From the NCBI GenBank assembly GCA_017517665.1, contig JAFWYP010000022.1:57717-121716 (forward strand): a stretch of DNA of 64,000 nucleotides, read 5' to 3'. The position numbers and the translations under genes are program-made. The DNA comes from Clostridia bacterium. Lineage in GTDB: Bacteria; Bacillota; Clostridia; Oscillospirales; Acutalibacteraceae. The notes beneath the pieces are model-generated. The model ran no database searches, was not told the DNA's origin, and was given only the letters and a program-made list of their open reading frames with translations. Each line of letters opens with the position of its first letter. Position 1 is the stretch's first letter. Shown piece after piece: positions 4,750 through 64,000 of the stretch.

Positions 4750-4886
4750 ATCAAGACCCCCAACCATGTTTTAATACTAATTTATTCAAAATTTCGGTAT
4801 TTGTGAAAAAACATTATGATTTTTATCTGCTTTTTTATTTTTTTACCTTAAATTGAAAATATAGCAATAAAAAACAAAAATTTCTC

Positions 4887-4915
4887 TTGATATTATTTTA
4901 ATTATAATATATAAT
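4887..4915 (+). promoter_or_regulatory. sigma-A promoter of the SRP RNA gene
   Basis: TTGATA at 4887-4892 and TATAAT at 4910-4915 are separated by exactly 17 bases, in AT-rich DNA. Transcription would begin near 4922, just before the SRP RNA. The dnaX start is 185 bases downstream and may depend on read-through. Confidence 0.8.
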
Positions 4916-4932
4916 ATAAAGGTATCTGAACA

Positions 4933-5077
4933 GGCATTTCTTTAGTCATGTGGCGTGTGGGTCCTGTGCGACAGGGCGCCGTGAACCATGTCAGGCGGGT
5001 GAACCGAGCAGCATTAAGCGGATAGTCTTGTGCGCCACAGTCTGCCTGCCGCCATATGACTAAGGAAATGCTTTTTT
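4933..5077 (+). ncRNA. ffs: bacterial signal recognition particle RNA (4.5S/small SRP RNA)
   Basis: The two ends pair over a long helix: GGCATTTCTTTAGTCATGTGGC at the 5' side matches GCC..CATATGACTAAGGAAATGC at 5051-5071, followed by a T run that ends transcription. The apical Ffh-binding domain is intact, with GTCAGG on one side and AGCAGC on the other of the symmetric internal loop (about 4997-5020). The loop at the tip is GTGAA closed by CGG/CCG rather than the usual GGAA tetraloop. SRP RNA lying directly upstream of dnaX is a familiar Firmicutes arrangement and supports the call. Confidence 0.9.
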
Positions 5078-5107
5078 AATAAATAACCTGTAAAGGAGAG
5101 TGAAAAG

Positions 5108-6736
5108 ATGTATCAGGCGTTATACAGAAAATGGAGACCGCAGACTTTCAATGATGTTTACGGTCAGCCTCATGTCACAAAAACTCTGCAGAATCAGCTT
5201 TGCAGCGGGAGAATTTCACATGCCTATCTTTTCACGGGTTCAAGAGGTACGGGCAAAACAACCTGCGCAAAGATTCTTTCAAAGGCGGTAAACTGTCTTT
5301 CACCGATTGACGGCAATCCCTGCAATGAATGCGAAATCTGCCGCGGAATTGATAACGGCTCAATTCTTGACGTTATTGAAATTGACGCCGCAAGCAACAA
5401 CGGTGTTGATAATATCCGTGACTTGCGCGAAGAAGCAAACTTTACTCCCGTAAATGCAAAATACAGAGTTTATATAATCGACGAGGTTCATATGCTTTCA
5501 ATCGGCGCATTCAATGCGCTTCTGAAAACTCTTGAAGAGCCTCCCTCACATGTTATTTTTATTCTTGCAACAACGGAAATTCATAAGCTGCCGTCAACCA
5601 TTCTTTCAAGATGCCAGCGTTTTGATTTCAAGAGAATTGCACCCGAGGATATAACCTCCAGACTTCTCTATGTTGCGGAAAAAGAAAACGTAAATCTCAC
5701 CGAAAACGCCGCAAACCTTATTGCACGAATAGCCGACGGCGGTATGCGTGACGCACTTTCACTTCTTGACCGCTGCTTTGCAATGGGAACGGATATTGAC
5801 GAAAACGCAGTCAGCGATGCCGCAAGTATTGCAGGCACAATTCATCTTTTCTCATTTTCGGAATACGTTGCAAACGGTGATTTTACAAGTTCATTGAAGC
5901 TTGTTTCAAAGCTCCACAGCGAAAGCTGTGATATTGACAGCCTCTGTACGGAGCTTACTCTGCATTTCAGAAATCTTATGGTTGCAAAAACCGTTTCGGA
6001 ATGCGAAGGACTCATTGTTTGCTCAAAGGATGAACTTGCATCTCTCAAAGAAAGAGCTGCTTCGCTCAAGCTCTCAAAAATTCTTGAATGCATTGAAATT
6101 CTTGAACAGACAGCCAAAAACATAAAAAATGCCGCAAACAAAAAAATTCAGCTTGAAGCGGCAGTCATAAAAATGTGTGCACCTTCATCGGCAGACGCGG
6201 CAATTTCCGAAGGACTTGAGGAAAGAATTTCAAAGCTTGAAGAATTGCTTGTAAACGGAGTCAGACCTGCCGCCGCACCCGTAGCTGTACCTGCACCCGT
6301 TCAGGAAACAAAAAAAACCGAACCGATTCCGGAGCCGATAAAAGAAGAACCAAAACCCGAAATCAGAGAGCCTGAAAAAGCTCCCGAACCTGCACCCGCT
6401 GCACCGCCCGCAGAGCAGAGCGACGTTGCCGACGGTCCGTTTGTTAACTGGGTTGATGTTCTCGATAAAATCAAGCTCTATGATATTCCCCTTTTCGGAA
6501 TCATGGCAAACACAACGGCTGTAATCAAAAACGGCAGAGTTGTTATCTCTTCGAATAATCCCACTCTTTTTGATTTCATCTGCACGGATACCCATTCAAA
6601 AGAGCTTGCAAGAGCTGTTTATGAAGTAATGGGCAGAAAAATGAAAATTGCGGTTTCAAATCCCGAAAAAGCAAAGGCAGAAAAAAGTCCGCTTGAGGAT
6701 TTAAAAAACAAGATAAATAAATTCAATAATAATTGA
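5108..6736 (+). CDS. dnaX: DNA polymerase III subunit tau/gamma
   Basis: A 542-residue clamp-loader ATPase. Walker A is GSRGTGKT at 44-51, followed by a four-Cys zinc module (about 64-79), Walker B YIIDEVHML and the sensor/arginine-finger region STILSRCQRFDFKR. After domain III there is a Pro/Ala/Glu-rich linker (about 390-440) and a C-terminal tau-like domain expected to contact polymerase and helicase. An AAAGGAGAG site precedes the ATG. An uninterrupted run of eight A at 6310-6317 (ACA AAA AAA ACC) sits at the start of the linker; loss of one A would end translation at codon 411, giving a gamma-like product. ybaB and recR follow as an operon. Confidence 0.97.
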   Translation: MYQALYRKWRPQTFNDVYGQPHVTKTLQNQLCSGRISHAYLFTGSRGTGKTTCAKILSKAVNCLSPIDGNPCNECEICRGIDNGSILDVIEIDAASNNGVDNIRDLREEANFTPVNAKYRVYIIDEVHMLSIGAFNALLKTLEEPPSHVIFILATTEIHKLPSTILSRCQRFDFKRIAPEDITSRLLYVAEKENVNLTENAANLIARIADGGMRDALSLLDRCFAMGTDIDENAVSDAASIAGTIHLFSFSEYVANGDFTSSLKLVSKLHSESCDIDSLCTELTLHFRNLMVAKTVSECEGLIVCSKDELASLKERAASLKLSKILECIEILEQTAKNIKNAANKKIQLEAAVIKMCAPSSADAAISEGLEERISKLEELLVNGVRPAAAPVAVPAPVQETKKTEPIPEPIKEEPKPEIREPEKAPEPAPAAPPAEQSDVADGPFVNWVDVLDKIKLYDIPLFGIMANTTAVIKNGRVVISSNNPTLFDFICTDTHSKELARAVYEVMGRKMKIAVSNPEKAKAEKSPLEDLKNKINKFNNN

Positions 6737-6749
6737 TTGGAGAATAACT

Positions 6750-7085
6750 ATGAAAGCAAGAATTCCCGGCGCACCTCAGGGTGGCGGCAACATGATGAAA
6801 AAAATTCAGGAAATGCAGGAAAATATGACAAAAATCCAGCAGGAAGTTGAAGCAACAGAGTTTTCCTCAACAGTCGGCGGCGGCGCTGTTGAGGTTGTTG
6901 TAAACGGCGCACATGAAGTAACTGCTGTTAACCTCAAACCCGAAGTTGTTGACCCCGATGATATTGAAATGCTTCAGGACCTCATTATTTCCGCATTCAA
7001 CGAAAGCATCCGCAAGGCAAACGATGCTATGGAGCAGGGTATGGAAAAGGCTAAAGGCGGTCTTTCAATCCCCGGTCTTTTCTGA
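6750..7085 (+). CDS. YbaB/EbfC nucleoid-associated protein
   Basis: A 111-residue protein with the family's amphipathic N-terminal helix (MMKKIQEMQENMTKIQQEVE) and the conserved core VGGGAVEVVVNGAHEV, ending in a glycine-rich tail. The family forms dimers with a tweezer shape that bind DNA without strong sequence preference. Its place between dnaX and recR is nearly universal. It starts 13 bases after dnaX with a TTGGAGA site, and its stop overlaps the recR start by one base. Confidence 0.95.
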   Translation: MKARIPGAPQGGGNMMKKIQEMQENMTKIQQEVEATEFSSTVGGGAVEVVVNGAHEVTAVNLKPEVVDPDDIEMLQDLIISAFNESIRKANDAMEQGMEKAKGGLSIPGLF

Positions 7086-52573: not shown

Positions 52574-52593
52574 AACAATTAGGAGTGGTATTA

Positions 52594-53661
52594 GTGAAAA
52601 TTAAGGTTGCGGTGCTTGATGACAATAAAAGTTATCTTAACAGACTTGCTGTGGTATTTACCGGAAAGTTTGCAGATAAGCTTGAGGTTTATTCGTTTTC
52701 GTCGCTTGAAGGTGCGTTGGCAGGTCTTGTTGAAAACAAGATAGATGTTTTTATTTCCAGCGACGCTTTTGATGTTGATGTAAAAAAAATACCGTCAGGA
52801 TGCGGATTTGCTTATTTTGTTTATTCACCTGATGTAAGTAGCTTGCGTGACCAAAGAACAATTTGTAGATATCAGAAAGCAGAAATGATTTACAAAGAAA
52901 TTCTCGGAATCTTTTCGGAAAACGCAACAGATATTGGATTTAAAATGGAGGGTAACGGTGAAACAAGGGTTTGCACTTTTACTTCTGCCAGCGGTGGTAC
53001 CGGCGCATCTACGCTTGCGGTCGGTTTTGCCAAACGATTAGCAAAAATCGGTAAAAAAGTTTTATATATGAACCTTGAAAAGTTTGGAAACAGCGATTTG
53101 TATTTTTCAGGTGAAGGACAGTTTAGCTTTGGCGACATAATTTTCTCTTTGAAAAGCAAGAAAGTTAATCTGGCAATTAAAATGGAAAGCTATGTAAAAG
53201 AAGATCCGTCGGGAGTATATTTTTATTCATCATCACCCAATGCTCTTGATATTGCAGAGATAACAAAAGACGATGTTCGTCAGCTTGTTTCTGCAATAAA
53301 AGCAATGAACAGCTATGATTTTATTGTTATTGATACGGGCTTCCAGTTTTCGTCATCGGTAATTGAAATTTTCAATCAGTCAAACGATATTATTTTTGTT
53401 TCCGACGGTTCTGAAGTTGCAAATGAAAAGTTTATGCGTGTTTATAATGCCATTGATATTTATGAGAGACAGAAAAACATTAAAATTCTCTCAAAGGTAT
53501 CATTGATCTATAATAAGTTCAGCAACAAAACAGGAAGAATTATTTCTGATTCAAATATCAGAATTCTTGGTGGAATTGTTCGTTATGAAAATGCTTCATC
53601 GGAGCAGATTATAGGTCAGATTACAAACTCTGACGATTTGGCGAAAATAATATTTATGTAA
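52594..53661 (+). CDS. cpaE: CpaE/TadZ-like ParA-family ATPase
   Basis: A 355-residue protein with an N-terminal receiver-like domain (KIKVAVLDDNKSYL; the phospho-acceptor region IDVFISSDAFDV lacks the usual geometry) and a MinD/ParA domain with deviant P-loop TSASGGTGASTLAVGFA. The signature Lys of KGG is replaced by Ser-Gly, and GKS by GAS, so ATP hydrolysis may be weak. TadZ/CpaE proteins localise the pilus machine. The GTG at 52594 has AGGAG eight bases upstream. Confidence 0.88.
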   Translation: MKIKVAVLDDNKSYLNRLAVVFTGKFADKLEVYSFSSLEGALAGLVENKIDVFISSDAFDVDVKKIPSGCGFAYFVYSPDVSSLRDQRTICRYQKAEMIYKEILGIFSENATDIGFKMEGNGETRVCTFTSASGGTGASTLAVGFAKRLAKIGKKVLYMNLEKFGNSDLYFSGEGQFSFGDIIFSLKSKKVNLAIKMESYVKEDPSGVYFYSSSPNALDIAEITKDDVRQLVSAIKAMNSYDFIVIDTGFQFSSSVIEIFNQSNDIIFVSDGSEVANEKFMRVYNAIDIYERQKNIKILSKVSLIYNKFSNKTGRIISDSNIRILGGIVRYENASSEQIIGQITNSDDLAKIIFM

Positions 53662-53682
53662 TCCGTGAAAAGGGGAATTAAA

Positions 53683-55245
53683 ATGAGCATTTTTACTATT
53701 GAAAATCAGGGAGTTAATACATATATCGTATACAAAGTTACGGCTGAGGATGAGTTTGACTCTCTCAGCTTCGGTATGCTTGCTAACAATAAAATAAGAG
53801 GTATAGCACCGATCCTATTCACTCAGGTTGACGCAGATAAATATCTTAAATACAATATTTCATCAAAAATTCCTGTCAGCACATATTTTAAAGGAACAGT
53901 AACAAGAAAAAAACTTCTTGATATTTTTTCGGGAATAGCTTCTGCTGTAATGGCTGCAGAAGAATATATGGTAGACACATCGCTTTTCATTTTTGATATC
54001 GACCACATATATGTTGACGCAACCACAAACGAAACAACTATCATATGTATACCGGTTGTAAATTGTGCTCACAGTACGGTTGATTTGCAGATGTTTTACA
54101 AGCAGATAATGTACAGCACTCAGTTTGATCAGAATGAAAATTGTGATTATATCGCTCCGATAATCAATTATCTGAATAGTACTCAAGTATTTTCCCTTGC
54201 AGATTTCAAGAAACTTATTGACAGATTGAATTTTTCTGCAGCTCAGAGTGCAACAGTCGTTGCTTCATCAGGAACATCATATCAGCCTCAGCCTTCTGTT
54301 AATTCATCTGTATCCGTTCAAAACCCTGCACCTGCACCGGCTCCTGTATATACAGAAAACAGAGTCGTAAAAGAAGAACCAGTCAAAAATCCGCTTGTTA
54401 ACACACTTCCGATAATGCCTGACACAGTTAAGTCTGTTCCCGCAGCAATGCCTCCTGTTCCTCAGAAGGCTGCAAAAGCAAGCAAAGCAGCAAAGAAGAC
54501 TCCGCCCGTACCTGAAGTAAACAATGATGTTACTGATGAGAAACAGATATCTCTGTTAACACTTTTAACTAAGTTCAGCAAAGAAAATCTTGATTTATAT
54601 AAGGCTCAGAAAGCCAACGGAAAACCTGCTAAAAAGGAAAAGACTCCCAAAGCAACAAAACCTGCTAAAGCGGCGCCAATGGGATTTGCAATTCCCGGAC
54701 AGAACTCCTCGATTAATTCGGATTCACCGACAGTACCTGCTTCAGCTTCACAGCCTGTTGCGGTTGCTGCTCCTAAGGCACCGCCTGCTCCGGCAAAGAC
54801 AACGGTTGAGTCTTCATACCAACAGATTCCGGTTGCTCCATCTAAGCCGGTCAATGTTCAACAGGCAAATTTTGGAGAAACAACTGTGCTTTCGAGTGCT
54901 GCAGTTGGTGAAACAACGGTTCTTGGGGTTGCACCTGTTGTATCGCAGCCTGTCGGTCATCTTGTCAGAGCTAAAACAGGTGAAAAAATTGCAATTAACA
55001 AGCCTGCATTCAGAATCGGTAAAGAGAAGAGCTATGTTGATTATTTTATCGGTGACAATACTGCAATCAGCAGAAGCCATGCAGATATTATTATGAGGAA
55101 CGGCAATTATTATATTATTGATCTCAATTCAACAAATCATACTTTCGTTAATGAAACGATAGTTGAAAGCGGAACCGAAAACTTAATCAAAGCCGGAGAT
55201 AAAATCAGACTCGGTAACGAAGTATTTGATTTTATTATGTTATAA
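53683..55245 (+). CDS. DUF6382-FHA protein with ETTVL motifs
   Basis: A 520-residue cytoplasmic protein. Residues 1-~190 form a DUF6382-like domain (FTIENQGVNTYIVYKVTAED...). A long Pro/Ala/Lys-rich disordered linker (about 200-395) follows, then two ETTVL motifs at 399-403 and 410-414, and a C-terminal FHA domain at about 443-520 with Arg444, Ser465/His466 and Asn485 in FRIGKEKSYVDYFIG and STNHTFVNE. FHA domains bind phosphothreonine, and the adjacent ETTVL sites resemble substrates for the kinase encoded two genes downstream. ATG at 53683 with AGGGGA. Confidence 0.85.
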   Translation: MSIFTIENQGVNTYIVYKVTAEDEFDSLSFGMLANNKIRGIAPILFTQVDADKYLKYNISSKIPVSTYFKGTVTRKKLLDIFSGIASAVMAAEEYMVDTSLFIFDIDHIYVDATTNETTIICIPVVNCAHSTVDLQMFYKQIMYSTQFDQNENCDYIAPIINYLNSTQVFSLADFKKLIDRLNFSAAQSATVVASSGTSYQPQPSVNSSVSVQNPAPAPAPVYTENRVVKEEPVKNPLVNTLPIMPDTVKSVPAAMPPVPQKAAKASKAAKKTPPVPEVNNDVTDEKQISLLTLLTKFSKENLDLYKAQKANGKPAKKEKTPKATKPAKAAPMGFAIPGQNSSINSDSPTVPASASQPVAVAAPKAPPAPAKTTVESSYQQIPVAPSKPVNVQQANFGETTVLSSAAVGETTVLGVAPVVSQPVGHLVRAKTGEKIAINKPAFRIGKEKSYVDYFIGDNTAISRSHADIIMRNGNYYIIDLNSTNHTFVNETIVESGTENLIKAGDKIRLGNEVFDFIML

Positions 55246-55272
55246 AAACGCACCTTTAAGGATGGAATACGA

Positions 55273-56040
55273 ATGAATTATTTTATTGCTGCAGATACGG
55301 ATATCGGAATAAAGAAAAATACGAATCAGGATGCACTGTCTGTAAAACAGTTAAGAACAAATACAGGCAATATGGTTTTTGCCGTTTTGTGTGACGGAAT
55401 GGGAGGTCTTGCAAAAGGTGAACTCGCAAGCACTGAAGTGATAAGATCATTTAATAAATGGCTTGCAAATGATTTTTCCGGTGAATGCAGAACGCAAGAA
55501 GATTTTGAGCTGATCAAAAATCAATGGACCCAAGTAATCAACAACGAAAATAAAAAAATAGGTTTGTACGGCAGACAGTATTCCATAAATCTTGGAACGA
55601 CGGTTGTTGCGCTGCTTTTAACAGATAACGGTTATATTGCAATGAATGTCGGAGATTCCAGAGCATATGAAATTGGAACCGATTCAATTCAGATAACAAA
55701 AGACCAAAGTGTTGTTGCACAAGAAATCGAGATGGGAAAATTGACAGAAGAACAGGCTTTGAAAGATTCCCGAAGAAACGTATTGCTTCAGTGCGTCGGA
55801 GCTTCAGATACTGTTATTCCTGCTTTTTATCGGGGAGAAACCAAACAAAACCATGTTTATATTTTGTGTTCGGACGGTTTTGTTCACGAAATAAGCAACA
55901 AAGAAATTTGCACTTTACTTTCGCCGCAGTCTGCGGTTGATAAAAACACAATGGCAAGAAATATCAGAAGTCTTATCGAGTTAAATAAATCTCGATTGGA
56001 ACAAGATAATATTTCGGTTGTTGCGATAAAAACATTTTAA
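55273..56040 (+). CDS. PP2C-type Ser/Thr protein phosphatase
   Basis: A 255-residue PPM phosphatase with all metal motifs: ADTDIGIKKNTNQDAL, LCDGMGGLAKGELAS, MNVGDSRAYEI, LCSDGFVHEI and EQDNISVVAIK. It would remove phosphate from threonines placed by the neighbouring kinase. Lies between the FHA and kinase genes with gaps of 15-27 bases. Confidence 0.95.
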   Translation: MNYFIAADTDIGIKKNTNQDALSVKQLRTNTGNMVFAVLCDGMGGLAKGELASTEVIRSFNKWLANDFSGECRTQEDFELIKNQWTQVINNENKKIGLYGRQYSINLGTTVVALLLTDNGYIAMNVGDSRAYEIGTDSIQITKDQSVVAQEIEMGKLTEEQALKDSRRNVLLQCVGASDTVIPAFYRGETKQNHVYILCSDGFVHEISNKEICTLLSPQSAVDKNTMARNIRSLIELNKSRLEQDNISVVAIKTF

Positions 56041-56055
56041 AGGGGATTATGCGGC

Positions 56056-57825
56056 GTGTTAGAGATAGGTTCCGTTCTTGATGGCAAATATAAAATATTA
56101 AGTGAAATCGGGCACGGCGGAATGAGTGTCGTTTATATGGCACTTAACGAAAAAGCTAACAAAACATGGGCAGTCAAGGAAATCCGAAAAGACGGAAAAA
56201 TGGATTTCAACATTGTCAGACAAGGCCTTGTTGCTGAAATTGAAACATTAAAAAAATTAAATCATCCGAACTTGCCGAGCATCGTTGATGTTATTGAAGA
56301 TCAGGATTCATTCATAATTGTTATGGATTATATCGAAGGCAACTCATTGGACAAGGCGTTGCTTGAACATGGTGCACAGCCTCAGGACAATGTTATAGAG
56401 TGGGCTATGCAGCTTTGCGACGTTCTCGGTTATCTGCATTCATGTAATCCGCCAATAATTTACAGAGATATGAAGCCTGCAAACATAATGCTGAAGCCTG
56501 ACGGAAACATTGCGCTCATTGACTTCGGAACTGCAAAGACATATGAGATTGATCTCGGCGAAACAACAGGTATCGGTACAATAGGTTATGCCGCTCCCGA
56601 ACAGTTTATAGGCAGCGGACTCGGAAGAACCGATGCAAGAACGGATATTTACTGTCTCGGAATAACTCTCTATCATTTGCTTACGGGAATTGACCCTTGT
56701 AAGAATGTTATTGCCGATAAATCGATAAGAGCTGTTAATCCGACACTATCACAGGGACTTGATGAGATAATAATCAAATGTACACAGCCTGACCCCAAAG
56801 ACAGATATCAGTCATGTGATGAACTTCTGTATGCGTTTGAACACCATAATGAAATGGGTATTGCATACAGAAAAATGCAGAAAAAGAAACTTAAAAGATT
56901 TATTGCTACTGCTGCGGCAACCATCATTTCCGCATTTGTTGCGGTTTTTGGGTTTGTTTCTGCTGAAAATGCCAAAACGGCAGACTACGAAAAATTGCTC
57001 GGAGAGGCAGAAAATATAGTATTGGATATCAAATCCGAAACTTTTAAAGAGGACTTCAAGAAGAAATGTGACAAATTTGTTGAAGCGATAGCAACGTCCC
57101 CCGAGAGATATGATGCAGAGAATGAAAATGATGCATATAACAAAATGATTAAGCTTTTTGAAAGCGAAATTTCGGACAAGGGAACGGAGCTTTCGACAAC
57201 CGAGGCTAAATATATAAGTCAGTTAGAAACAGGATATGATGTTGTGGATGCTTTTGGAAACTCAACCACAATTTATCCTATAGAAGAGCTTAAAACAGTG
57301 AATACTGACAACTATGAGGAGTTGTGTTTGGATATAGGAATTCTTTATTGGTACAGCTATGAAGTTCAGGAATCGAGATATGAGTACGGTGGAAAATGGT
57401 TCGGATATATTGCTGAAGAGAATTCCATGGCGATGACCTTTAAAGAAATTGCGGATATAACCGAAAAAATTCGTGCGCTCAGAGCTACAAGCAAGAAAAA
57501 TATAGAAAATTTGCTCAAGATAAAAAAAGAAATACCCGAACTCTGGAACAAAATCAAAGGTCTATATGATAATGCTTCAGATTATGACGAAGATATGAAA
57601 ATAATTGCTCTCAGAGAAGTTATTTCCTGCATTTCTTCCGAAGTGGATTCGTTTATTGCTTTGGAAAATGTAACGAAAGAACAAATTGTTGATATGCTTA
57701 ACGGAGCAAAAGCTGGAATAGACAGTTATGGCGAAGATGCTTTTTCGGAACTGAGCAAACAGGCTGACGAAGCAATAAAAAGAGCAGTGTCAGTAAAAGA
57801 AAACGGTAAGGAGGCGATGCAGTAA
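56056..57825 (+). CDS. transmembrane Ser/Thr protein kinase (Hanks type)
   Basis: A 589-residue receptor kinase. The Gly loop is EIGHGGMSVVYM (17-28), Lys41 is in WAVKEI, the catalytic loop is YRDMKPANIM (136-145; Tyr in place of His of HRD, as in many clostridial kinases), DFG is at 156-158 and the APEQF end of the activation loop at 180-184. The activation loop has ETTGIGT, similar to the ETT motifs of its neighbours. One membrane helix (about 280-300) leads to a ~290-residue helical outer domain without PASTA repeats. GTG start. Confidence 0.93.
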   Translation: MLEIGSVLDGKYKILSEIGHGGMSVVYMALNEKANKTWAVKEIRKDGKMDFNIVRQGLVAEIETLKKLNHPNLPSIVDVIEDQDSFIIVMDYIEGNSLDKALLEHGAQPQDNVIEWAMQLCDVLGYLHSCNPPIIYRDMKPANIMLKPDGNIALIDFGTAKTYEIDLGETTGIGTIGYAAPEQFIGSGLGRTDARTDIYCLGITLYHLLTGIDPCKNVIADKSIRAVNPTLSQGLDEIIIKCTQPDPKDRYQSCDELLYAFEHHNEMGIAYRKMQKKKLKRFIATAAATIISAFVAVFGFVSAENAKTADYEKLLGEAENIVLDIKSETFKEDFKKKCDKFVEAIATSPERYDAENENDAYNKMIKLFESEISDKGTELSTTEAKYISQLETGYDVVDAFGNSTTIYPIEELKTVNTDNYEELCLDIGILYWYSYEVQESRYEYGGKWFGYIAEENSMAMTFKEIADITEKIRALRATSKKNIENLLKIKKEIPELWNKIKGLYDNASDYDEDMKIIALREVISCISSEVDSFIALENVTKEQIVDMLNGAKAGIDSYGEDAFSELSKQADEAIKRAVSVKENGKEAMQ

Positions 57826-58454
57826 TGGCTCAAAACACATCAGCGGCCTTGACCGGTGCAATGTCTTTGTCCGATATTTATATGATAGTTTGTTATGTAG
57901 GCATCGCTCTTTGCATTCTTTTCCTGATAATAACGCTTGTTTTATTTTTTAAGGATAACATTATAGAAGTTATCGGAGACCTTTCGGGTTCGAATGCAAG
58001 AAAAGGAATCGAAAACATCAGAAACCAGAATCGTTCATCGGGAAACAAGGCTCACAAGCCGAGTCATGTTAACCTTGAACGAGGAAGACTTACCGATAAA
58101 ATAACAAAATCGGGAGCATTGATACCTGCGGGAGAATCTGTGGGTGTAAGTGTCGGAACAGAAAAATTCCAAACAGGAAAGCTTGTGACCGACGAAACGA
58201 CTCTTCTTGACGTGCAGGAAACAGAAGTGTTGATTGCGGAAGAAGGACAATCTGTCGACGAAACAACGATTCTCGTCGGAAACGATTTCGGAGCAACAAC
58301 CGTTCTTGATGCAAGTACTAATGAAACAACGGTATTGTCGTATGGTTCGGAGGAAACAACCGTTCTTAATATGGCAGGTTTTGAAACCTTCAGAACAGGC
58401 GTTGTTGTTGAAGATGAAATTATTTTTGTTCATTCAAATGAATATATAAACTGA
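57825..58454 (+). CDS. single-pass membrane protein with six ETTVL-type repeats
   Basis: A 209-residue protein: short N terminus, one membrane helix (20-42), basic juxtamembrane stretch, and a cytoplasmic tail with ETTLL (124-128), ETEVL (132-136), ETTIL (146-150), ATTVL (157-161), ETTVL (167-171) and ETTVL (177-181). Each is acidic then Thr-Thr with Leu at +3 of the first Thr, the spacing favoured by FHA domains (pT-x-x-I/L/V). It overlaps the kinase stop (TAATG). It looks like a phosphothreonine docking scaffold for the upstream FHA protein. No known family recognised. Confidence 0.75.
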   Translation: MAQNTSAALTGAMSLSDIYMIVCYVGIALCILFLIITLVLFFKDNIIEVIGDLSGSNARKGIENIRNQNRSSGNKAHKPSHVNLERGRLTDKITKSGALIPAGESVGVSVGTEKFQTGKLVTDETTLLDVQETEVLIAEEGQSVDETTILVGNDFGATTVLDASTNETTVLSYGSEETTVLNMAGFETFRTGVVVEDEIIFVHSNEYIN

Positions 58455-58473: not shown

Positions 58474-58956
58474 GTGGGAGTTATTGCGAAAAATGATAAA
58501 ACAAGCAGAATAATGTTTGTCTTATCCCTTGTTTTCGGATTTGTTTTTGCCGCATCATTTTTGTTGATGCCTGCAGCAAGCAGTATATCCTTGAATGAAG
58601 GAAAAAACGAACTACTTTATCTGGCAGGAGCATTATTTTGGAGTTCATTGTTTTTATCAATTGTAACAACAGTTATTGTAACGGTAAAAAGAAAAAAATA
58701 TTTTAAAAACAAAGAAAATTCTAATCTTCCGAAATATCCCGGAATCATAACTTTCTTTTCCTCAAAAAAGGCCAAAATTGCGGATATTCTTATGATTGTT
58801 TTTCTTTTTGCATTTATAGCTTGTACTATATTTGCAGATGGTTACCCTATTTATGTTTTTCTGTTCTTATCGGTGTTGGCAATTCAGTATCACTGTGTTC
58901 TGAACGGTAAAAATCTTATATTTATAAAAGAATTGAAGTCAGGGGGCAGCGTGTAA
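58474..58956 (+). CDS. hypothetical four-helix membrane protein
   Basis: A 160-residue membrane protein with four helices in two pairs (about 12-35, 45-68, 98-118, 122-140) separated by a basic cytoplasmic loop (VKRKKYFKNKENSN). No motif recognised. GTG start with GGAGATG upstream. Its stop overlaps the ATG of the giant surface protein (TAATG), suggesting coupled synthesis and perhaps a role in its export. Confidence 0.65.
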   Translation: MGVIAKNDKTSRIMFVLSLVFGFVFAASFLLMPAASSISLNEGKNELLYLAGALFWSSLFLSIVTTVIVTVKRKKYFKNKENSNLPKYPGIITFFSSKKAKIADILMIVFLFAFIACTIFADGYPIYVFLFLSVLAIQYHCVLNGKNLIFIKELKSGGSV

Positions 58957-61900
58957 TGAACAGTAAAACAAGATCAACAGTATTAAGGCTTCTGTCGCTT
59001 GCACTTTCATTTATGATGGTGATAAGTGTTATTCCCGTAAATGGTATGGTGGTATTTGCCGCTGAAGAAGATACAATTTCCATTCAGTATTTGAGCAAAA
59101 ACATTGTTCAGGAAGGCGTGGAAATCAAAATCAAGCCTAATGATGCTACAGACGACAGCTACATAGGAAAAACTGATAAATACGGTATATGGAAAACTGA
59201 AGTGTTATGGAAAGACCTTTCCGAATCATTTTATATTTCCATTAACGGAGATTCAAAGAAAATTGTCAGATCCGATGAGCCGAAAAGCTTCCTTATCGTA
59301 ATAGATGACGAAAAGAAGTGGACGGATGAAGCAATGCCTGTTGCCGTTATTTCAATTGAAGCTGATAAAACTTCTGTCGGAAGAGGCGAATCCTTCGAGA
59401 TCAGTTCAACAGTATTCGGCACCCCTGATAAGTATCAGTGGTATCGTGATTCTCAGGAAATTGCAAGCGCAACATCCTCAGTTCTTAAAATTGACAATGC
59501 AGCCGTTACAGACACTGGCGCTTATTCATGCAAAGTAATTGATATTAACGGAGATTCAAGAACATCCGATTCAATCGAAATCACCGTTACTGAAAAGGCT
59601 CCTGAGGGTCTTGCTCTCAAGGCATATGCAGACGGCTCGGAGATCGACGGCCCCGTTTCGAGAGATTCCGTAAAGGAAATTGAACTTAAGCTTGAAAATA
59701 TTCCCGATGATGCAGCTGTAACAGATGTTGCATATTATGTAAACGGCAACTGTGTAAGCTCGGGAACATCGGAAACATCTTATGTTTTTGCTCTTGAGTC
59801 AGGCGTAGAGGAATATACATGCGAAGTAGAGCTTACATTTGATAAGTACTATGAGCAGACCAAGGTTGCTCTCTCTGCACCTGTTCAGGCTCCTCTTCTT
59901 TCACAGAGTGAAATCGTAATTACTGTTGAAGGCGCAGAATACGATGCAGCAGAAGGTGCTTATGTTCTCACATATTCGGATTCTCCCAAAGCAAAGCTCG
60001 AAATAACAGTTTCGGGTGGTTCAGGCGACGGCGAATATAAGCTTGAGCTCGTTGAAGAAAAGAACTCTGACGGTTCAAACGCAAGCTATGTTGGTAGAAA
60101 TGTAAAAATCGACAAGGTTTACGGACAGAATAAATGGAAAGCAGAAATCAAGAATGCAGGTTCATTCAAGCTTGAAGCAAGCAAAGAAGGCGATGGAAAT
60201 TATGAAGCAATTGCTCCTGTTTACGCAAGCTTCAAAGTGAATAAGGCATCTGCAGGTGATTTTGCTTTTGAAATTCCTTCTCCCGAAGCAGTTGTTTATA
60301 ACGAAAATAACAATGAATTTGTAAACAAAATCGTTGGTGAATTCAGTGATGTAAAATATGAAATCATAGATGGCGACTGCGCTGTAATTGATGAAGCAAC
60401 AGGCAAGCTCAGCATCAAGAAGGCAGGCATTGTTACCGTTAAGGCTTCTCTTGCTGAAAGTGAGAATTATCTTGCAGCATCGGCAGAGTATACTCTTACA
60501 GTCAACAAGGCTGCACAGACCATCAAATTCGAAGACAAGGCTGCAACAATTTATTACGGTCAGTCATATTCAAGAGTTGCTGCTCCCGAAGCAGTTGACG
60601 GCGCAGCTGACGGTTACGGATATAACCATGACGAAGGTGTCAAGCCCGTATACAGCATTGTTGTTGCAGACGGAGCTGAAGCAATTGCTGCCGTAGCTGA
60701 AGACGGAAGCCTTGCATTCGAAAATCAGAAGACAGGTACTGTTACAGTCAAGGCTGTTCTTGCAGGAAATGACTGTTACGAAACTGCAGAAGCAGAATAT
60801 ACTCTCACAGTTGAAAAATATACCGTTGAAAATGCATATTCGGTCAGCGGTGAGCAGCTCAATTCAGAAAGCGGATGGTATACAGGTGATGTAACCGTCA
60901 CACCTGCTGAAGGTCATCAGATAAGCAAAACTAACAACCTCGGTGATACAAACGAATGGTCTGAATCGCTTGTAATAAGCGCCGAAGGAGTTGAAAACGG
61001 TTTAGATATCTATCTTAAGAATGTAGAGACAGGTGCAATTTCGGAAGTAAGCACTGTTAATTCCGACAGAGTAAAAATCGATAAGACTGCTCCTGCAGGC
61101 CTTAAGGTAAATTATAAGACATCCGTATGGTATGAGGATGTATTGAATTCAGTAACATTCGGTTACTATAACTCAACAGTTATCTTCACTCTTGAAGCAA
61201 AGGATGAAACATCGGGAATTGAGTATTTCGTATGGAGTCTTGTTTCGCATGAAGATGACGAAAATGCAGAGTCTGCAACTATAGTTCCCGAAACAAAAGT
61301 TACTGCAGAGAAAAAAGGCGATGTTTATGAATCCGAAGCATGTGTACTCGGAGATAAAAACGCTCTTGATGCTCTTTGCGGAAAGATTTCGTTCTCTGCA
61401 TATGACTATGCAGGTCATTCAGAAGAATATGAAGACGGATATGTTATCGTTATTGATACGGAAGATCCCGAAGTAAGCATCGAAACAGATGCTTCTTACA
61501 AGAGCATGGTAAATAACGCTTATCCTTATGATGATGCAGATGAAAACAGCTTGTCTCCTATTGAAATTTATTCCGATTCTGTGAATGTCAAATTCAGAGT
61601 AATAGAGAAGAATTTCTTCGTTCAAAATGCAACTGCAAGCGTAAACGGTGAGGATGTTACTGATGAGCTCTTGTGGAAATCAGAAGGCGATAACCACTAT
61701 GCAGTTTATAACATTGAAGAAGACGGCGATTACAGTATAGTTTTCGTTTATGAAGATATTTTTGGTGAGGACATCGAAAATTCAGCAGTTAAAAACAAGT
61801 ACGAGCTTTCAAAGCATATTTCGGTTGATACAGTTGCTCCCGAAGTAACAGTTACACTCAGCGAAGCAGATTTTGAAGCTAAAAACACAAAGTACTACGA

Positions 61901-64000
61901 TGAAACCGTAAGTGCCGAAATCAGCGTTAAGGAAGAAAAGTTTAATCCCGCAAACCTTAATGTTTCCGAAGTCGAAGGTTTTGACGGTATGAGTGAGGAA
62001 AATAAAGCTCATCTTGCTCAGTCATCAAGCTGGGATTATAACGAAGAAACAGGCGTGTATACTGCTACTATAGTTTTTGCGGCTGAAAATTCCGATGGGA
62101 ATTATGCGTTTGCAGTTGATTATTCAGACCTTGCAGGCTATGCTGCAGTACAGGCTGAATCAGGCAAGTTTGTTATTGACACAAAAGCTCCAGAAACTGC
62201 TGTTAATTCAGTTGCAGAAGCAACAATCACTGTAAATAACAATTATCCTTATGAAACAGTTGAAAAGGACAGCGAAGGCTCTGTTGACATTTTCAGCGAC
62301 AGCACAGAAATTGTTTTTACAGTTAATGACAAGAATTTCTTTGAAGACAGAGCAACTGTTAAAGTAAACGGTAATATTGTTTCTGGTCTTGCTTGGAGCA
62401 AAGAAGGTGATGTTCACACCGCAACATATATGTTCAATGAAAGCGGCGACTACAAAATCGAACTTTCATATGAGGATATCTTTAACGGTGCAATTTATGA
62501 ATCATCTGATTTTATTGCGGTTGACAAAGATGCTCCCGTTATAAATATTGCTCTCAGCAAGGAAAATACCGAGAACAATGAAGTTAAATATTATAACAAC
62601 GATGTAACAGCAGTTATCACTGTTGAAGAAATCAGATTCCGTCCTTCGGAATTATCGGTTTCCGAAGTGGAAGGTCTTTCAGGCATGAGCGAGGAAAACA
62701 AGGCTTATCTTGCACAGTCCTCAAGCTGGGCATATGACGCAGAAAACAGCAACTATACTGTATCTGTTGTTTTTACAGCTGAAAATGCAGACGGAAATTA
62801 TGCGTTTGCAGTTGATTACACAGATCTTGCAGGCAATGCTGCGGCACAGAATGAATCAGGAAAGTTTGTTGTTGATACTATAAAGCCTGTTATTTCTGTT
62901 GATTACGGTGTAGCAAAGATTCTTGATAAGCAGTTCGTTATACAGGAAAGTCTTGAAGGCAGAGATTTCAAAAACACAATCATTTTTGATGATGATGATA
63001 TTATTGTTACTGTTGAAATTGATGAAGTGAACTTTAACCCCGACAAGGCTGTTGCAATGCTTTCTGTTGATGGTGCCGAAGCAAAAGAGCAGAAGTTTGA
63101 TGGTGAATGGATAACAGAAGGCACTGTTCATACAAACACCATTACAATCAGCGAGGAAGATTTATACAGTCTTACAATTGATTGCACAGACAGATCTCTC
63201 AATAGTGCTGACGACTACAATTCACCTGAAATCGTACTCAGTAAAGAACTTCCCTCTGTATCAATTGAAATAACAACAGAAAACGATGTTGAAAATACAT
63301 ATTTCAACAAGGATCAGGTTGAAGTTGTAATCAGAGTTCTCGATGACTACTTTGATGAGGGTCGTGTGAAGGTAACTGCTGCAGATAAGATGGCAACTGA
63401 TATTAACGGTAAAGCTATTGTTCTTGCAGAGACCGATATTATTCCCGATTTCAGCAGGGATAAAACATGGACAGAAGGTAAAAATGCCGATGGAAAGATA
63501 TTCCATAGTGCGACAATTACCTTGACAACACAAGCAAGATTTTCATTCAGTGCAGAATATGAAAACGCAGTAGGTTCAACAAGCAGTGCGAACTGCTCAC
63601 TTGTTCTCGACAGAACAAAGCCAACACATACCATAACTTATGCTGCTCAAGAAGCAGAAACATTCCTTCAGGCAGTGTCTTTCGATCTTTATAACCCCAG
63701 TGTTTTCGTGAAGATTAAAGCAACTGATGATATTTCGGGTGTTGACAAGATAGACGTAGAATACCCTGCTCACCTTGCTCCCGGAAATGCTTATAATTCA
63801 GATGATTTTAAAACAAAAGAAACATTCTTCTCAGACGATACTTCAGGTGATCAGGAAGCCCTTGAAGGTGTATGGGAGGTTAACAAGGAAAAGGCAAGTG
63901 TTCAGGCAAAGGCTCAGATCACTGTCGTTGCAACTGATAACTGCCGTAATTCAACAGACGAAGAGTTCAGAACAGATACACAGATTACGGGCATAGATAA
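58956..64000 (+). CDS. giant secreted Ig-repeat surface protein (3' end outside window)
   Basis: An uninterrupted frame of 1681 codons that continues past the right edge. The signal peptide is about 38 residues (LRLLSLALSFMMVISVIPVN, then FAAEE). An immunoglobulin-like domain (VSRG..; YQWYRDSQEIASATSSVLKI ... AYSCKV) is followed by Big-type repeats joined by TLTVNKAAQ and TLTVEKYTVE, then Ig-like modules introduced by DTVAPEVTV, DTKAPETAV, DKDAPVINI and DTIKPVISV. A unit of about 240 residues is duplicated (61513-62200 and 62233-62880). It is likely an adhesin carried or exported with the Tad system; any wall anchor would lie beyond the window. Confidence 0.9.
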   Translation, partial: MNSKTRSTVLRLLSLALSFMMVISVIPVNGMVVFAAEEDTISIQYLSKNIVQEGVEIKIKPNDATDDSYIGKTDKYGIWKTEVLWKDLSESFYISINGDSKKIVRSDEPKSFLIVIDDEKKWTDEAMPVAVISIEADKTSVGRGESFEISSTVFGTPDKYQWYRDSQEIASATSSVLKIDNAAVTDTGAYSCKVIDINGDSRTSDSIEITVTEKAPEGLALKAYADGSEIDGPVSRDSVKEIELKLENIPDDAAVTDVAYYVNGNCVSSGTSETSYVFALESGVEEYTCEVELTFDKYYEQTKVALSAPVQAPLLSQSEIVITVEGAEYDAAEGAYVLTYSDSPKAKLEITVSGGSGDGEYKLELVEEKNSDGSNASYVGRNVKIDKVYGQNKWKAEIKNAGSFKLEASKEGDGNYEAIAPVYASFKVNKASAGDFAFEIPSPEAVVYNENNNEFVNKIVGEFSDVKYEIIDGDCAVIDEATGKLSIKKAGIVTVKASLAESENYLAASAEYTLTVNKAAQTIKFEDKAATIYYGQSYSRVAAPEAVDGAADGYGYNHDEGVKPVYSIVVADGAEAIAAVAEDGSLAFENQKTGTVTVKAVLAGNDCYETAEAEYTLTVEKYTVENAYSVSGEQLNSESGWYTGDVTVTPAEGHQISKTNNLGDTNEWSESLVISAEGVENGLDIYLKNVETGAISEVSTVNSDRVKIDKTAPAGLKVNYKTSVWYEDVLNSVTFGYYNSTVIFTLEAKDETSGIEYFVWSLVSHEDDENAESATIVPETKVTAEKKGDVYESEACVLGDKNALDALCGKISFSAYDYAGHSEEYEDGYVIVIDTEDPEVSIETDASYKSMVNNAYPYDDADENSLSPIEIYSDSVNVKFRVIEKNFFVQNATASVNGEDVTDELLWKSEGDNHYAVYNIEEDGDYSIVFVYEDIFGEDIENSAVKNKYELSKHISVDTVAPEVTVTLSEADFEAKNTKYYDETVSAEISVKEEKFNPANLNVSEVEGFDGMSEENKAHLAQSSSWDYNEETGVYTATIVFAAENSDGNYAFAVDYSDLAGYAAVQAESGKFVIDTKAPETAVNSVAEATITVNNNYPYETVEKDSEGSVDIFSDSTEIVFTVNDKNFFEDRATVKVNGNIVSGLAWSKEGDVHTATYMFNESGDYKIELSYEDIFNGAIYESSDFIAVDKDAPVINIALSKENTENNEVKYYNNDVTAVITVEEIRFRPSELSVSEVEGLSGMSEENKAYLAQSSSWAYDAENSNYTVSVVFTAENADGNYAFAVDYTDLAGNAAAQNESGKFVVDTIKPVISVDYGVAKILDKQFVIQESLEGRDFKNTIIFDDDDIIVTVEIDEVNFNPDKAVAMLSVDGAEAKEQKFDGEWITEGTVHTNTITISEEDLYSLTIDCTDRSLNSADDYNSPEIVLSKELPSVSIEITTENDVENTYFNKDQVEVVIRVLDDYFDEGRVKVTAADKMATDINGKAIVLAETDIIPDFSRDKTWTEGKNADGKIFHSATITLTTQARFSFSAEYENAVGSTSSANCSLVLDRTKPTHTITYAAQEAETFLQAVSFDLYNPSVFVKIKATDDISGVDKIDVEYPAHLAPGNAYNSDDFKTKETFFSDDTSGDQEALEGVWEVNKEKASVQAKAQITVVATDNCRNSTDEEFRTDTQITGID
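61513..62880 (+). repeat. tandem duplication inside the surface-protein gene
   Basis: Two copies about 720 bases apart: AACNNTTATCCTTATGA starts each, and both encode GMSEENKA.LAQSSSW and DGNYAFAVDY.DLAG. DNA identity is highest in the last third of each copy (GATGGNAATTATGCGTTTGC). Confidence 0.75.

Follow-up and report, generated by a model that had tools for sequence, protein, structure and literature searches.

A T-x-[VIL]-L motif shared by a kinase, a membrane protein and an FHA protein suggests a portable phosphothreonine switch in Clostridia

Why should a kinase, a single-pass membrane protein and an FHA-domain protein, encoded side by side next to the genes of a Tad pilus, all carry the same short threonine motif? 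The question is raised by a 64,000-nucleotide stretch of DNA (hereafter the window) from a Clostridia bacterium (GenBank assembly GCA_017517665.1, contig JAFWYP010000022.1, positions 57,717 to 121,716), in which the gene for TadZ/CpaE is followed by genes for a protein with DUF6382 and FHA domains (J), a PP2C phosphatase, a transmembrane Hanks kinase and a single-pass protein (K). From comparison with related loci, we consider it likely that these four proteins make up a portable phosphothreonine switch, in which the kinase would be the writer, K, anchored beside the kinase, the platform, J the reader and PP2C the eraser.

The threonine motif in K, J and the kinase loop

The presumed scaffold K (57825..58454; all features given here are on the + strand) is an open reading frame (ORF) of 209 residues with one transmembrane segment (57876..57950, read from the sequence) and no Pfam match at an E value of 0.1. 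Because basic residues follow the transmembrane helix, its tail would, to judge by sequence, lie in the cytoplasm. This tail of 170 residues holds six sites, i.e., ETTLL (58194..58208), ETEVL (58218..58232), ETTIL (58260..58274), ATTVL (58293..58307) and ETTVL twice (58323..58337 and 58353..58367), against 0.64 expected, and none of 500 shuffles reached that number. The site codons differ between most copies, although sites 4 and 6 share four TTVL codons.

The presumed reader J (53683..55245, with an alternative GTG start at 53665) has 520 residues, with DUF6382 at the N-terminus (53713..54156, Pfam residues 17-164, E 3.9e-20) and the FHA domain at the C-terminus (55012..55215, Pfam residues 450-517, E 1.9e-14). 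Its linker contains two ETTVL sites 11 residues apart, both N-terminal to the FHA domain (54877..54891, with T400 as first threonine counted from the ATG, and 54910..54924, with T411, V413 and L414), against 0.41 expected by chance. The presumed eraser, a TseF-like PP2C phosphatase (55273..56040, Pfam PP2C_2 E 8.3e-11), is followed by the presumed writer, a TseD-like kinase (56056..57825, Pfam Pkinase E 1.4e-48) whose activation loop reads ETTGI and then GT (56560..56574, the T170/T171 region). A preliminary description, made from the letters of the window alone, had reported this run of four genes after CpaE, and the ORFs and Pfam matches agree. Its counts of six sites in the last protein and two before the FHA domain of J stand, and the ETTG that it saw in the activation loop fits T-x-x-[LIM]. 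Its ETTVL had to be given up as the core motif, because the second threonine and the glutamate at -1 vary, as in the ETEVL and ATTVL of K.

Sequence comparison gives T-x-[VIL]-[LIM] as the site. The leucine at +3 is conserved, and in J, K and the kinase alike the first threonine is kept while the second varies. In an alignment of 46 J sequences, T400 is invariant and L403 at least 90% conserved at site 1, while T411, V413 and L414 are at least 90% conserved at site 2; the second threonine of neither site appears among the conserved columns. The activation-loop T170 is invariant in 51 aligned kinases, whereas T171 is not. The 64 distinct K tails hold 198 sites; at +1, 95 of these have threonine and the others Glu, Asp, Ala, Ser, Val, Met or further residues, and glutamate precedes the motif threonine in 119. 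Since the first threonine is conserved and the second is not, the phosphate would be expected on the first. FHA domains read phosphothreonine, and T-x-[VIL]-[LIM] looks like what a reader of phosphothreonine and its +3 residue would want.

The comparison rests on J loci gathered by FHA and DUF6382 domain patterns or by a DUF6382 model; the docking motif played no part. Identical sequences were counted once and near-identical ones kept, except in a thinning at 40% identity. In the 64 distinct K tails, composition shuffles predict 28.7 sites rather than 198, and the controls show no such excess (reversed pattern, 20 versus 28.9 in shuffles; serine version, 17 versus 22.8). Leucine is 4.5-fold enriched at +3 from threonine but does not rank in the top three of the residues enriched after serine. 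At least one site occurs in 64 of 64 tails, at least two in 56 and at least three in 41. When K was thinned to 25 sequences less than 40% identical, 85 sites remained against 11.2 expected, and every one of the 25 had at least one. The profile used to label K may be biased towards tails of this type, so position served as a second check: 82 kinases were found, 75 of them with a next ORF, and in 64 cases this was K. For three more kinases (L079, L161, L172), K lies in a reading frame that the ORF filter had dropped, and of eight without an adjoining K, seven have another or unparsed loop type.

The linkers of J give a similar picture. There were 111 distinct J-labelled ORFs, five of which lacked an FHA anchor and were dropped from the linker count. 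Where J, kinase and K occur together, the linkers hold 155 sites against 17.1 expected (reversed pattern, 10; serine version, 15), with at least one in 64 of 64 and two in 60; the recurrence of the repeats in homologous loci, on which the preliminary description had staked its claim, was thus borne out in K tails and J linkers alike. The motif was present in 13/17 J beside a kinase without K, 6/10 beside a type VII ATPase and 9/15 in other settings. At least two sites cluster within 60 residues in 73/111 J and 52/65 K, but in only 14/1344 other distinct ORFs of the fetched loci. Three loci (L021, L023, L024) stood outside the main set; J of L023 has no site and J of L024 one weak site (ITSLI).

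Chance or low complexity as the source of the motif was rejected on the shuffles, the reversed and serine controls and the thinning. It might still be proposed that the sites reflect chance or shared ancestry in a functionless, threonine-rich tail, and the K tails are indeed mutually related and rich in threonine. However, the seven-fold excess over shuffles, its survival at 40% thinning and the lack of a serine or reversed excess, together with a pattern common to J, K and the loop of the kinase, i.e., to different kinds of protein, leave this scarcely credible.

All 57 parsed kinases from loci with K have the activation loop T-x-x-[LIM]-G-[TS], often DTTCLGT; loops were parsed where they end in APE or SPE. 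The other PrkC-like kinase of the window's genome lacks this signature and has a different spacing. The docking sites resemble the loop (DTTVLGT, DTTCLGT), and could pass for copies of the site that the kinase would phosphorylate in itself, as expected of substrates. J carries the motif in 72 of 73 cases where the nearest kinase has the signature loop, and in 7 of 14 where the loop is of another type or unparsed. In three loci of type VII type (L022, L074, L077) the kinases have other loops and J has no site; J of L080, with no kinase seen in the stretch, also lacks one. The likeness to the loop would also suit a K that acts as a substrate decoy or pseudosubstrate and is never read by J, but we think this unlikely, as the same sites stand beside the FHA domain in J, and an FHA reader would call for threonine rather than serine, with leucine at +3. 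As a separate observation, J in L122, L131, L147 and L086 lies beside kinases of about 950-1000 residues without a T-x-x-L-G-T loop, and K was not seen there. Among these J, those of L122 and L131 carry DTVVI/M-like sites and that of L086 carries others, while that of L147 is without any.

The link between kinase, J and K also extends to genomes in which J stands apart from the other two. Eight J loci whose fetched flanks lack a kinase of this class were chosen, and a whole-genome search, which could have failed, found such a kinase elsewhere in 8/8 genomes. For the seven of these J that bear the motif, the kinase was followed in 7/7 genomes by K with at least two sites. In the remaining genome (L132), both J and the ORF after the kinase are free of sites. 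One of the seven, L129, lies in the same genome as the L141 cassette, which leaves six of the seven as new cassettes. J without a kinase in view also occurs outside this sample, in L059, L080, L081, L126, L140, L157 and more.

Tad and type VII settings

The order J, PP2C, kinase, K, in many cassettes a small membrane protein, and then a large protein with immunoglobulin-like (Ig-like) domains recurs in Lachnospiraceae, Oscillospiraceae, Clostridium and other records. The window's cassette adjoins Tad genes, as the preliminary description held when it called the circuit built into a Tad operon; as a Tad feature in itself the idea did not survive, and a Tad-only cassette was discarded, because the cassette also lies in type VII loci. 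The flank shows Tad genes upstream for 41 of the 64 distinct K and type VII genes for two, and leaves the other 21 unassigned; the motif occurs in all 41 K of Tad loci. A quick tree built from 68 kinase domains, rooted at the midpoint and with two long branches, falls into two halves, each with a support of 99 in the Shimodaira-Hasegawa-like approximate likelihood ratio test (SH-aLRT). One has 49 rows, i.e., 41 Tad and 8 unassigned, and the other 19, i.e., 3 type VII and 16 unassigned. Fifteen of the latter 16 genomes were searched: a type VII ATPase was found in 12 and not in G255, G434 and G435, and 11 were without a Tad ATPase while four had one. The type VII ATPase adjoins the cassette in at least two, G344 and G400. 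As the motif occurs in both halves of the tree, it would either predate their split or have arisen twice.

In G020, a relative of the window's genome, the cassette lies inside a type VII locus, with a Tad-type ATPase elsewhere in the genome, and its K matches that of the window (E 9.4e-7). The type VII ATPase of G020 itself has an FHA domain, which raises the alternative that this ATPase is the true reader and that cassettes beside Tad genes hold a relic. We regard this as very improbable: a search of the window's genome (88.67% complete) for a type VII ATPase gave no match at 1e-20, yet Tad-linked K retain the motif without exception, and the FHA residues described below are invariant in J that are mostly Tad-linked.

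Five loci (L133, L134, L149, L150, L154) show Tad operons running directly into type VII genes. In L133, L134 and L154 the order is J, a second J, a TadZ-like protein and then an FHA-FtsK-type ATPase; in L149 and L150 J is followed directly by the ATPase, with WXG100 genes in L149.

Proteins other than J and K may also carry the site. L082, L083 and L160, from the non-Tad kinase clade, have four zinc-ribbon membrane proteins between J and the phosphatase with two or three T-x-[VIL]-L sites near the N-terminus, and these match neither the J nor the K profile. Proteins of this kind are found at L082:4036-4692, L083:12308-13114 and L160:12465-14419, and two further L083 zinc-ribbon proteins have one site each. 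They are possible further clients of the switch. Convergent gain of the sites was dropped as an explanation: a zinc ribbon is shared with J of type VII type (L158), so the segment may have been inherited rather than gained anew.

A proposed switch and its precedents

In the FHA domain of J, G446, S463, R464, H466 and N485 are invariant in the 46 aligned sequences, mostly Tad-linked, and S463, R464 and N485 are the phosphate-site residues; the closest solved relatives include GarA, OdhI and Rad53 FHA1. The last site of J lies 49-54 residues before the FHA serine in 57/64 J, and the last two sites are 8-13 residues apart in 51/58, exactly 11 in 30. Since J varies widely in overall length, this near-fixed distance suggests that the sites have a task tied to the FHA domain. 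GarA and OdhI have an ETT phospho-site N-terminal to their FHA domain, and J likewise has an FHA domain with an N-terminal ETT site. They are small proteins without DUF6382 that act on metabolic enzymes, whereas J has 520 residues, DUF6382 and a membrane partner.

On the switch that we favour, the membrane kinase would activate itself on the loop threonine within T-x-x-[LIM]-G-T, and then phosphorylate the first threonine of the T-x-[VIL]-L sites in the K tail and the J linker. If the FHA domain of J reads phosphothreonine with leucine at +3, phosphorylated K would become a multivalent membrane platform that gathers J, with its DUF6382 domain, at the export machine. The sites of J itself, about 52 residues before the phosphate-site serine, would compete in cis or link J in trans, and would thereby set a threshold; PP2C would reset the switch. 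Phosphorylation, binding and the direction of the switch we infer from the comparisons above, and it may control Tad assembly or the display of the large Ig-like protein. We also lean towards the view that a single T-x-[VIL]-L code, matching the kinase loop, joins kinase, scaffold and FHA reader in a plug-in switch shared by Tad pili and type VII secretion, which other membrane proteins could join by carrying the site.

An arrangement with a different outcome is one in which the linker sites chain J head to tail in trans, so that J and K together form a condensate or polymer, in place of autoinhibition in cis. One FHA domain and two sites per J, with several sites in most K, make a multivalent set, and condensates linked to FHA proteins have been reported for Rv1747 (PMC9312465) and PpkA-Fha (PMC12607579), at least in the available parts of those papers. 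A near-fixed distance between site and FHA domain, in a protein of varying length, suits a switch in cis at least as well, and we hold the chain tentatively, as somewhat less than an even prospect.

Several points weigh against the proposed switch. The residue before the phosphate site of the J FHA domain is lysine, whereas FHA domains usually have arginine there. Thirteen of the 64 K tails do not singly exceed shuffles at 0.05, eight of them tails with one site. L055 has the kinase loop signature with no K adjoining, and seven J beside kinases with no signature or an unparsed loop have a site nonetheless. The cassette is also patchy near home: DUF6382 occurs in 37/394 genomes of the order, and among 59 close relatives, 36 of them from the window's own genus, it was seen in four. 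Of these four genomes only G020 has the cassette, which lies in its type VII locus; in none does it adjoin Tad genes. Finally, a modelling paper (PMC4037201) doubts, in the portion available, that FHA selectivity comes from the +3 residue alone.

Part of the gene set has been described before. For type VII variants, Garrett 2024 (PMC11217815) named TseJ, TseF, TseD, TseK, TseH and TseI and, in the sections available, raised control by phosphorylation. T7SSe and T7SSj combine a DUF6382-FHA protein, a PPM phosphatase, a membrane kinase and a single-transmembrane protein with an unstructured cytoplasmic stretch, besides a large Sec-signal protein that has Ig-like domains and a C-terminal transmembrane segment (available parts of PMC11217815). 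The window has a protein with DUF6382 at its N-terminus and FHA at its C-terminus, an adjoining PPM phosphatase and membrane kinase, and, as read from the sequence, a single-transmembrane protein; its cassette corresponds by description to TseJ/F/D/K or H, with K as the putative TseK or TseH. T7SSe and T7SSj loci also have genes for a type VII ATPase and WXG100 proteins, whereas none was recognised among the window's ORFs, and the cassette here adjoins Tad genes, in a genome whose search yielded no type VII ATPase. The same parts of the paper mention neither repeats nor a docking motif, nor do they place such a cassette in a Tad locus.

Recruitment of FHA proteins to phosphothreonine in secretion is known in the type VI secretion system (T6SS). 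The membrane kinase PpkA phosphorylates a threonine of the membrane component TssL (PpkA-TssL-Fha; PMC3953482), and in TssW-PpkA-Fha (PMC12607579) the kinase phosphorylates Fha, with condensates; in both the FHA protein helps to start the machine. The difference is that, as far as the accessible parts of these papers go, one threonine is mapped on TssL, no repeated T-x-x-L code is named and the machine is unrelated. Rv1747 with PknF and PstP, as presented in parts of a review (PMC9312465), shares FHA domains, a disordered linker, kinase, phosphatase and reversible condensation, although there the FHA domains and linker all lie within one ABC transporter.

Listings of the open-access literature gave no repeated T-x-x-L code, activation-loop match or cassette in Tad loci; ETTVL had no relevant match there, judged by title, and DUF6382 led only to PMC11217815. 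The listings, abstracts and available parts of PMC11217815 hold no account of how Clostridia Tad pili or these type VII variants are switched on. If the proposal is right, one phosphorylation switch serves two unrelated export machines of gut Clostridia, Tad pili and type VII secretion. It makes a precise prediction that is cheap to examine with peptides, i.e., which threonine, which reader and which partner, and genomes can be scanned with its short motif for partners of the switch.

Surroundings of the cassette

The window closes a contig of 121.7 kb in a genome of 2.77 Mb. A LytTR regulator gene and then the Tad locus begin at 39.7 kb, in the order, by Pfam, T2SSE ATPase, two T2SSF proteins, A24 peptidase, WG-repeat protein, TadE and DUF5702, followed by a TadE-like protein, a 459-residue protein with no Pfam family above cut-off, an A24 N-terminal protein and TadZ (TadZ/CpaE, 52585..53661, Pfam TadZ-like_ARD E 1.5e-42, directly upstream of J). 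The locus thus has a TadA-type ATPase, two TadB/C-type proteins, TadE, TadZ and a prepilin peptidase, as expected of a Tad pilus. A second Tad-type ATPase in the genome (G000:C6:141955-143085) is 48% identical to the window copy.

At the C-terminus of K lies a conserved box, roughly [HSA][ST]xE[VI]I (58425..58451 in the window), which a narrow pattern finds in 46/64 K. Downstream of TadZ, after J, PP2C, the kinase and K, come the small membrane protein X160 (58474..58956), which by locus comparison stands next after K in many cassettes, and a large surface protein with a signal-like start (58956..64000), TsdI/TseI-like by description, in which Ig-like domains were detected and whose C-terminus lies beyond the contig end. 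In L087, a 664-residue membrane protein near J (4789-6780) has three (E/G)TVLL sites. The closest named relative found is a Clostridia genome from goat colon (L094), with J 74% identical.

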